DNA from: Prevotella melaninogenica
GTDB taxonomy: Bacteria > Bacteroidota > Bacteroidia > Bacteroidales > Bacteroidaceae
Direction: 5' to 3'
DNA length: 64,000 bases
Assembly: GCF_018127925.1 (NCBI RefSeq)
Contig: NZ_CP072347.1
Location: 1,180,501-1,244,500 of the forward strand
This document shows positions 49,498-49,991 of this stretch, piece after piece. Position 1 is the stretch's first letter, and the number at the start of each line of letters is the position of its first letter. Below the pieces are notes generated by a model. The model saw only the letters and a program-made list of their open reading frames with translations. It was not told where the DNA came from and did not search any database. Position numbers and translations under genes: made by a program.

Positions 49498-49819
49498 TTA
49501 TATATACATCCTGACGAACTCATTATTTATCCTTTCTGATTGCCTACCCTCTCCCTCTCTACAGGCAGACAGCGCTTTACCACTGCCTGCCCGAGAAATC
49601 AACGAGAGAAAACAAACTATTATTAGAGAATTACAATTATCTGTTACGGTAAAATCTGTGCTTAAAACGTCCTTATTTTGCTTTCTTGATAGCTCGCAAA
49701 TGGGCACGAAAAAGCGAACAAAGGAAACTCCGTGAAGTCCTTTGTTTACAACGGTTACGACACGCTTCGCGCGCGCGTAGGATGGAAGAAAAAAAGTATG
49801 ATTAAACGCTAGTAGCGCC
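49498..49819 (-). CDS. Leader open frame downstream of the CA tract (cassette A)
   Basis: An open frame of about 107 codons runs from the CA tract to a stop at 49498 (ALLAFNHTFFLPSYARAKR to NNEFVRMYI). It can start internally at a GTG at 49707 (VPICELSRKQNK) or be fused to the upstream frame when the CA count is 2 modulo 3. The matching frame in cassette B has the same length to within the tail and no indel. The opposite strand is also open here for about 40 codons, and many differences between copies change residues, so coding is uncertain; a structured RNA leader is the alternative. Confidence 0.4.
49708..49746 (-). terminator. Second terminator-like hairpin in leader A
   Basis: On the minus strand AACAAAGGA pairs with TCCTTTGTT (49717-49746), followed by CGCTTTTT. 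The same structure is at the matching place in leader B. It lies about 270 bases before the first conventional gene of the cassette, so it may attenuate transcription. Confidence 0.5.
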
Positions 49820-49978
49820 TGTGTGTGTGTGTGTGTGTGTGTGTGTGTGTGTGTGTGTGTGTGTGTGTGTTAGCAAAATATCTGAAACTACCAAATATAA
49901 AGCACTAAAAAAGGCAAAGAAATCAAAGTTTCTTTGCTGTGCTGGATTGGCTGGATATGTCGTTGCTAATTTGTTCAC
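49802..49978 (-). CDS. Small ORF with Thr-His repeat, leader of cassette A
   Basis: 58 codons from a GTG at 49978, 5 bases after the TACCTTTG box, to a TAA at 49802. It reads VNKLATTYPANPAQQRNF, a hydrophobic segment (FFAFFSALYLVVSDILL), then TH repeats encoded by the CA tract and GATSV. The cassette B copy shares 31 of the first 36 residues or so. With 25 CA repeats it ends shortly after the tract; with a count of 2 modulo 3 it would continue for about 107 more codons (about 160 residues in total). Confidence 0.45.
   Translation of the reverse strand: MNKLATTYPANPAQQRNFDFFAFFSALYLVVSDILLTHTHTHTHTHTHTHTHTGATSV
49820..49869. repeat. Dinucleotide tract, 25 TG (CA on the minus strand), cassette A
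   Basis: 50 uninterrupted bases of TG on the plus strand. Such tracts change length by slipped-strand mispairing. It lies in the transcribed leader, inside an open frame, at the same place as the 18-repeat tract of cassette B. Confidence 0.97.
49905..49937 (-). terminator. First terminator-like hairpin in leader A
   Basis: On the minus strand GCAAAGAAA pairs with TTTCTTTGC around a 6-base loop, followed by CTTTTTT. It comes about 45 bases after the promoter and is conserved in leader B. Confidence 0.55.
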
Positions 49979-49983
49979 GGCGG

Positions 49984-49991
49984 CAAAGGTA
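49984..49991 (-). promoter_or_regulatory. Promoter -7 box of cassette A
   Basis: TACCTTTG on the minus strand, embedded in sequence shared with cassette B (62995-63002). Similarity between the two cassettes starts close to this box. Confidence 0.6.

Follow-up and report, generated by a model that had tools for sequence, protein, structure and literature searches.

Why should an uninterrupted run of 25 CA repeats lie inside a short open reading frame (ORF) ahead of an operon for a predicted surface lipoprotein? The run belongs to a leader, here called leader A, in a stretch of 64,000 nucleotides of Prevotella melaninogenica DNA (contig NZ_CP072347.1, positions 1,180,501 to 1,244,500; hereafter the window). 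A preliminary description of this DNA had proposed that the repeat number switches a reading frame and that one repeat more would yield a protein of about 160 residues. Two questions follow: whether the repeat number indeed decides the frame, and what would be gained by switching it.

Results

Anatomy of leader A was checked by comparing its letters base by base on the minus strand, on which all features of this leader and of its relative leader B lie. The promoter (49984..50014) consists of TTG (50014-50012), 20 bases, and TACCTTTG (49991-49984), an arrangement that we take to be of the Bacteroidota -33/-7 type; a sigma-70 scan, which does not cover that type, listed nothing at this site. Five bases past the -7 box, as had been described, a GTG (49978-49976; ATG in the paralogue L054) opens a frame that runs into the CA tract. 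The part ahead of the tract, VNKLATTYPANPAQQRNFDFFAFFSALYLVVSDILL (49871..49978), is open from GTG, or ATG in L054, in 36 of the 37 CA-type copies in the genome from which the window was taken (the window genome), the exception being L063 with a one-base deletion. Within this ORF, and starting 42 bases into it, lies a terminator-like hairpin, hp1, with the sequence GCAAAGAAA-CTTTGA-TTTCTTTGC (49937-49914) followed by CTTTTTT (together 49907..49937), which was picked up by an independent scan and by covariation. The tract itself is an A plus 25 CA units without interruption (49870-49820; 25.5 copies with 100% matches in TRF) and starts 121 bases downstream of the first base of the -7 box, the presumed transcription start lying near the GTG.

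A recount bore out the frame arithmetic of the preliminary description: the frames ahead of and behind the tract join only when the repeat number is 2 modulo 3. With 25 repeats (class 1, predicted OFF) the product would end in ...THTGATSV after 58 aa, at the TAA at 49804-49802. This TAA and a TAG (49811-49809) close the two other frames, and the single frame left open beyond the tract (49498..49819) extends over 106-107 codons to a TAA at 49500-49498. The early stops end 59 (TAG) and 52 nt (TAA) ahead of a second hairpin, hp2 (49749-49714 plus TTTTT at 49713-49709, together 49709..49749), which we read as a putative intrinsic terminator or attenuator and which the run-on frame crosses. The invariant CGCG columns of alignment A1 fall within the conserved element TACGCGCGCGCGAAGCGTGTCGTA (49756..49779, letters checked); the TACGCGCGCGCG stretch at these positions, and at the equivalent place in relatives, provides invariant columns in 40 chosen leaders from many species. 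At Rfam gathering scores there were no matches in the window, and no tRNA or tmRNA context was found for the leader.

Leader B (62508..63002) repeats this design, with a -7 box at 63002-62995, a GTG at 62989, hp1 at 62948-62925, a tract of 18 repeats at 62881-62845 (class 0, predicted OFF), early stops at 62836-62834 and 62829-62827, hp2 at 62774-62739, and the ON stop at 62510-62508. Both leaders head a gene for a 68-aa peptide followed by one for a predicted lipoprotein. Behind leader A these are a peptide without a Pfam or NCBIfam match (49226..49432, minus strand) and a 513-aa protein without a Pfam match (47627..49168, minus strand), presumably a surface lipoprotein judging from its N-terminal signal, for which a PDB sequence search with the lipoprotein alignment gave nothing up to an E value of 1. 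Behind leader B (60565..62454, minus strand) they are the peptide at 62248-62454 and a 548-aa lipoprotein at 60565-62211. Peptides of 67-90 aa ahead of such lipoproteins, including the two in the window (49226-49432 and 62248-62454), keep a one-cysteine pattern and an acidic end, differ widely among operons, and matched no Pfam family. Each of the two lipoprotein genes is followed by an HU-like gene (46701-47132 and 59997-60467; Pfam HU-HIG). In genome G122 some copies head genes for secreted proteins without a peptide gene; of six G122 proteins scanned, four matched the BspA-type LRR_5 family, one of them just below the curated cut-off.

Leaders A and B are members of a large family. Using the leader as query we found 40 places in the window genome, and a 41st copy, L072, came from a list of CA tracts; 37 of these copies carry CA tracts (6-38 repeats) and four carry CT tracts (13-23). 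Matches to (CA)10 in this genome fall almost exclusively in leader loci (241 of 247; 111 of 117 on the forward and 130 of 130 on the reverse strand). Since it belongs to one of 41 homologous leaders and nearly all such matches lie in their loci, the tract of leader A is far beyond chance. Including the window genome, a match was present in 10 of 200 genomes of a genus sample and in 20 of 398 of a family sample (19 of the same genus and one of another). Several of these have many, with 37 matches in G122, 25 in G076, 18 in G499, 11 in G003, and 9 in G026. Among the 80 loci listed from 100 stretches, named carriers of the hp2 pattern were Prevotella veroralis, P. vespertina, P. jejuni, P. pallens, P. 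micans, P. oulorum, Prevotella oral taxon 376, and Prevotella sp. BV3P1, as well as Hoylesella marshii, H. enoeca, H. saccharolytica, H. pleuritidis, and Segatella maculosa; viral contigs held no copy of this pattern.

The two leader types differ ahead of the tract. The CA-type ORF ends in ...YLVVSDILL and continues as THTHTH, whereas that of the CT type is a different ORF, which starts with an ordinary ATG and ends in ...YLVVPNNFV before LSLSLS. The gene downstream of L071/L060 in the window genome (CA21) is 94% alike over 1.6 kb to that downstream of L192 in P. vespertina (CT22), and since the same gene is thus found behind either type, leader types seem to have been exchanged.

Despite these differences, a common layout recurs in many species and with both tract chemistries: a -7 box of the Bacteroidota type, a short ORF that continues into the tract without a stop, two frames that are stopped, usually within a few codons, and a third that runs on. 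In most window-genome copies the early stops are found 8 and 15 bases beyond the tract, in most G122 copies 16 and 21 bases beyond it. A hairpin plus T-run is present within 170 bases past the tract in 110 of 113 called copies. Among these 110, two frames are closed before hp2 in 100, the longest frame extends past hp2 in 108, and both hold in 98, so that in these 98 the repeat number decides between an open and a closed frame, as in slipped-strand switches. A second frame remains open for at least 20 codons in 12 of the 113. All 210 early stops that precede hp2 in the two shorter frames are more than 27 nt away from it (median, 53), the distance of 27 nt being one that applies to an E. coli terminator in the available text of PMC4824070. 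Leader ORFs that can be read across a putative intrinsic terminator, with an alternative stop well upstream, are the arrangement of pyrBI-type attenuators.

If the tract were inert, the three classes should be about equally filled. Instead, only 22 of 169 copies have a repeat number that puts the run-on frame in register, where one third is expected (binomial P, 1.3e-9), which argues that the frame matters and not length alone; this and the other register P values are nominal, as paralogues are not independent. The first set of copies contributed 16 ON and 97 OFF, species new in the second set 2 ON and 35 OFF, and the third set, after removal of 10 duplicates, 4 ON and 15 OFF. In the window genome, with 3 ON (L036, L048, and L065) and 36 OFF (nominal P, 1.8e-4), the 37 CA tracts divide into 18, 16, and 3 over classes 1, 0, and 2 modulo 3; an inert tract gives no reason for two roughly equal classes and a nearly empty third. 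The shortage is complete in G003 (0 of 11), G026 (0 of 8), and H. enoeca (0 of 20), and persists without the window genome and H. enoeca (19 of 110; nominal P, 1.3e-4). In G122, 8 of 35 copies are in register, which is not significant by itself (P, 0.13). Genome G232, from another genus, has 3 of 5 in register, and without it the count is 19 of 164.

These calls depend on rules that differed slightly among the sets. A copy was counted as ON when the frame continued for at least 40 codons past the tract (first set), when it stopped over 30 bases beyond the first base of hp2 (second set), or when it continued for at least 105 bases (third set). The first-set table comprised 126 loci, with five others skipped (L147, no match; L174, L181, L182, and L183, no tract), and 13 of the 126 were left uncalled, eight because they were masked and five as ambiguous, including L063 with its one-base ORF deletion and L066, which is OFF when read by hand. 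For the second set, 80 loci of 100 stretches were examined and 37 from species not previously counted were used; repeats of counted genomes, contig ends, masked loci, and loci without a tract were left out. In the third set 29 of 30 loci were called, and 10 repeats of the second set (six from Segatella maculosa and four from P. jejuni) were removed by hand, leaving 19. Counted as ON are L150, with a very short ORF by the start rule, and L078, with two long frames and an interrupted tract; other odd rows are L310, with an interrupted tract, and L054, with no frame past hp2. Tracts of fewer than five units, including those of L187, L188, L196, L199, L201-L203, L212, L214, L217, and L224, are out of register in 14 of 17 cases. 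They may constitute a silent reserve, reflect collapsed assembly, or be a sign of reversed polarity.

As in slipped-strand loci, these uninterrupted short repeats vary in number. Apart from the spread of 6-38 units over the 37 CA copies of the window genome, pairs of the same type that are at least 95.5% identical over 110 + 110 flanking nucleotides differ in tract length in 80 of 90 cases (median difference, 5; largest, 29). With one genome per species, this variability is between loci and species. For instance, L051 of the window genome (9 repeats) and L309 of G545 (27 repeats) are 88.6% alike over 3.1 kb of locus, and L128 (22) and L166 (10) are 94.9% alike over 1.8 kb. The recurring layout, the depletion of in-register copies, and the differences between close pairs thus uphold the frame switch that had been suggested for the tract.

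Both hairpins have been conserved as structures. In alignment A1 (40 sequences) 98.3% of the cells of hp2 are paired, with 30 changes on both sides of the stem against 6.9 in shuffles, and in alignment A3 (44 sequences) 95.5% of the cells of hp1 are paired, with 62 such changes against 17.3; controls slid along the alignments gave 46-64% and 49-58%, respectively. The sequences in both alignments were picked by hand for diversity. Among 127 distinct regions ahead of CA-type tracts, 100 have an hp1 stem, which in 96 of these is followed by a T-rich run. The rule of a hairpin plus T-run is by itself permissive, being satisfied by 34.5% of dinucleotide shuffles, albeit at lower scores (median of the real sequences, 33.5; 95th percentile of the shuffled ones, 27). 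A simple independent scan lists hp1 of leader A without hp2, which escapes it because of a bulge in the inner stem and a CGC before the T-run. In the G122 copies L148, L149, L152, L153, and L156 a different hp2 stem with a T-run is present at the equivalent place.

In contrast to the hairpins, the peptide encoded by the leader is under little constraint. Fourteen of the 15 group-segments of the leader ORF had pN/pS values of 0.68-1.14 and the remaining one (G003+G026, ahead of the tract) a value of 0.48, and purifying selection on the amino-acid sequence of the 160-aa product is not apparent from them. Stop-making alleles were nevertheless rarer than expected (24 versus 42.8; P, 0.001), mainly owing to the part ahead of the tract; no segment behind the tract was significant by itself. 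Near-neutral pN/pS combined with a shortage of stop-making alleles suggests that stops tend to be kept out of the frame even though the peptide itself drifts. Hence, one repeat more would indeed join the frames into some 160 codons, as had been claimed, but given the weak amino-acid constraint the product is probably not a functional protein, and we have rejected such a protein as the main point of the switch. Rather, from a peptide sequence that is nearly free to vary, it seems to be the passage of the ribosome that matters.

Discussion

We consider it fairly probable, arguing from sequence, that the leader is a slipped-strand switch built onto a translation-controlled, pyrBI-like attenuator of surface-protein operons. 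The element under its control seems to be the terminator-like hairpin that lies past the tract and ahead of the operon. We read the leader as an attenuator with the repeat number as its input because the early stops lie far from hp2, the run-on frame crosses it, and E. coli terminators respond to such differences. In the available text of PMC4824070, the ribosome keeps an E. coli terminator open when a stop codon is near, and full strength is attained with more than about 27-30 nt between the two; when insertion of a single base shortened this distance from 28 to 5 bp, termination fell from ~90% to <10%. Likewise, according to the accessible part of PMC5021804, termination at the pyr leader hairpin is inhibited when a ribosome moves across it.

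Applied to Prevotella, transcription would start near the GTG or ATG, and a ribosome, provided that the leader is translated as we infer, would trail RNA polymerase through the ORF, past hp1, and into the tract. With the right class modulo 3 it would go on to cross hp2 and block the hairpin, allowing RNA polymerase to reach the genes for the peptide and the surface protein (ON). With a repeat number of either remaining class, release of the ribosome would follow soon past the tract, hp2 would fold, and transcription would end ahead of the operon (OFF), which is the state predicted for copies A (25 repeats) and B (18 repeats). Slippage in the tract, presumably occurring within strains, would change the class, and each of the ~40 operons would thereby switch independently. 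The hairpin inside the ORF would end those transcripts that lack a trailing ribosome. In other words, hp1 may ask whether a ribosome follows and hp2 whether the repeat number is in frame, with carriage of the ribosome as the sole job of the leader ORF. To the full picture of ~40 separately switched attenuators with two terminator-like hairpins in series, which would leave the larger part of the surface-protein repertoire silent and a few members active in each cell, we give about an even chance.

Several of the results above count against this scheme: the permissive hairpin rule and the scan that lists hp1 without hp2, the lack of significant stop avoidance behind the tract, the second open frames, the registers of G122 and G232, and the very short tracts. 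In addition, the GTG is so near the presumed 5' end of the RNA that it would be a leaderless start, and leaderless GTG starts are usually weak. Furthermore, the statement, in the text available of PMC4824070, that ribosomes not aided by pausing are unlikely to catch up with RNA polymerase within the first 100 bp speaks against the proposed role of hp1.

A serious, if unlikely, alternative is translational coupling, in which a ribosome in register ends near the start codon of the first gene and restarts there or opens it up, hp2 being incidental or an element of mRNA stability. The short distance between ON stop and next ATG in G122 (34 copies) and G076 (11 copies), with a median of 7 bases in both, speaks for such coupling, although in G000 (39 copies) the median gap is 62 bases and two covarying hairpins with T-runs are left unexplained. 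The ATGA overlaps in 10 of the 45 G122 and G076 copies prove little, as any frame that reaches ATGA must end there, and were dropped as proof.

As to the polarity of the switch, we presume that read-through means expression. The reverse, in which the operon is repressed by read-through and expressed in the early-stop classes, so that most copies are expressed, is a serious alternative as well, if a rather improbable one. In its favor, most copies are out of register, including 14 of the 17 with fewer than five units, and a gene that is permanently silent should decay. A terminator-like hairpin placed between the early stops and the gene, however, would then make no sense.

We regard as very unlikely an effect of tract length at the RNA or DNA level, for instance through binding of a protein or small RNA, through spacing, or through Z-DNA, with no part for a reading frame. 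Repeats in leaders or promoters do act in this manner elsewhere: the leader of Helicobacter pylori tlpB contains a G-repeat that is targeted by the small RNA RepG and works by length, with no modulo-3 logic. The vlhA repeats of Mycoplasma gallisepticum are another case in the available text of PMC6258824. Yet a frame-free action is disfavoured by the modulo-3 bias (18/16/3 in the window genome and 22/169 overall), and it leaves aside that the ORF ahead of the tract is kept open and that CA and CT tracts serve alike; an effect on promoter spacing is disfavoured in particular by the position of the tract downstream of the -7 box. A further reading, in which the leader serves mainly as a common module for the recombinational exchange of surface-protein cassettes and the tract is a hot spot that has no switch role, accords with the L071/L060 and L192 pair but predicts neither the frame bias, the open ORF, the paired stops, nor the terminator-like hairpins and is highly improbable, although such a role may exist in addition to the switch.

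Slipping repeats and attenuation by leader translation are each known, and the switchable attenuator that we favor would unite them. To our knowledge, no known system joins dispersed layout, attenuation, and slippage in one dedicated leader. In siaD of Neisseria meningitidis, repeat slippage creates an early stop and with it premature, Rho-dependent termination inside the structural gene; slippage is coupled to early termination in both systems, but here in a dedicated leader with intrinsic-type hairpins and in ~40 copies. In Haemophilus lic and Neisseria opa, the repeat number modulo 3 joins or breaks the frame of the surface or enzyme gene itself, whereas the frame joined here is that of a leader ORF of nearly free sequence before the gene. 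With tlpB the leader shares a variable simple repeat that sets surface-protein expression, here through modulo-3 frame logic instead.

As far as described in the available text of PMC6258824, M. gallisepticum vlhA resembles our system in that a large, dispersed family of surface lipoproteins is headed, member by member, by a repeat of variable number, few members are read as active at once, and the start codon is often GTG. The vlhA repeat, however, is a trinucleotide upstream of the transcription start with 12 units favored, whereas here a dinucleotide, downstream of the inferred start, lies in a leader ORF and shows a modulo-3 bias. E. coli pyrBI, as presented in the accessible parts of PMC4824070 and PMC5021804, likewise has a leader ORF across an intrinsic terminator, where a ribosome close to RNA polymerase prevents termination; its input is pyrimidine-dependent pausing, in the place of which repeat number would act here, and shared ancestry is not implied. 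In the open-licence literature on repeats or phase variation in Prevotella or Bacteroidetes we found no description of the module, nor do the available texts of PMC11388281 and PMC4060949 describe it; its use as a dedicated module some 40 times in one genome and across oral Prevotella relatives was not found in print there.

If the proposed switch is real, different cells would show different surface proteins, and surface variation in an abundant human oral genus would be written as countable repeat numbers. Long reads of saliva or plaque could then reveal the state of every operon with no need for culture. The leaders would also constitute a natural test of ribosome-polymerase coupling in Bacteroidota.

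Some further features of these loci are recorded here. Between hp2 and the peptide gene of leader A lies a G+C-rich inverted repeat, GCAGGCAG...CTGTCTGC (49590-49561), without a T-run, of which variants are visible by eye in other copies. A scan placed a terminator-like site at 50049-50035, just upstream of the leader A promoter, which may mark where the upstream gene (50235-50945) ends. Lastly, in all 10 of the five-kilobase window-genome loci (L061-L070), a basic ORF of 141-156 aa, HU-like by eye, is found 2.2-2.9 kb past the tract.
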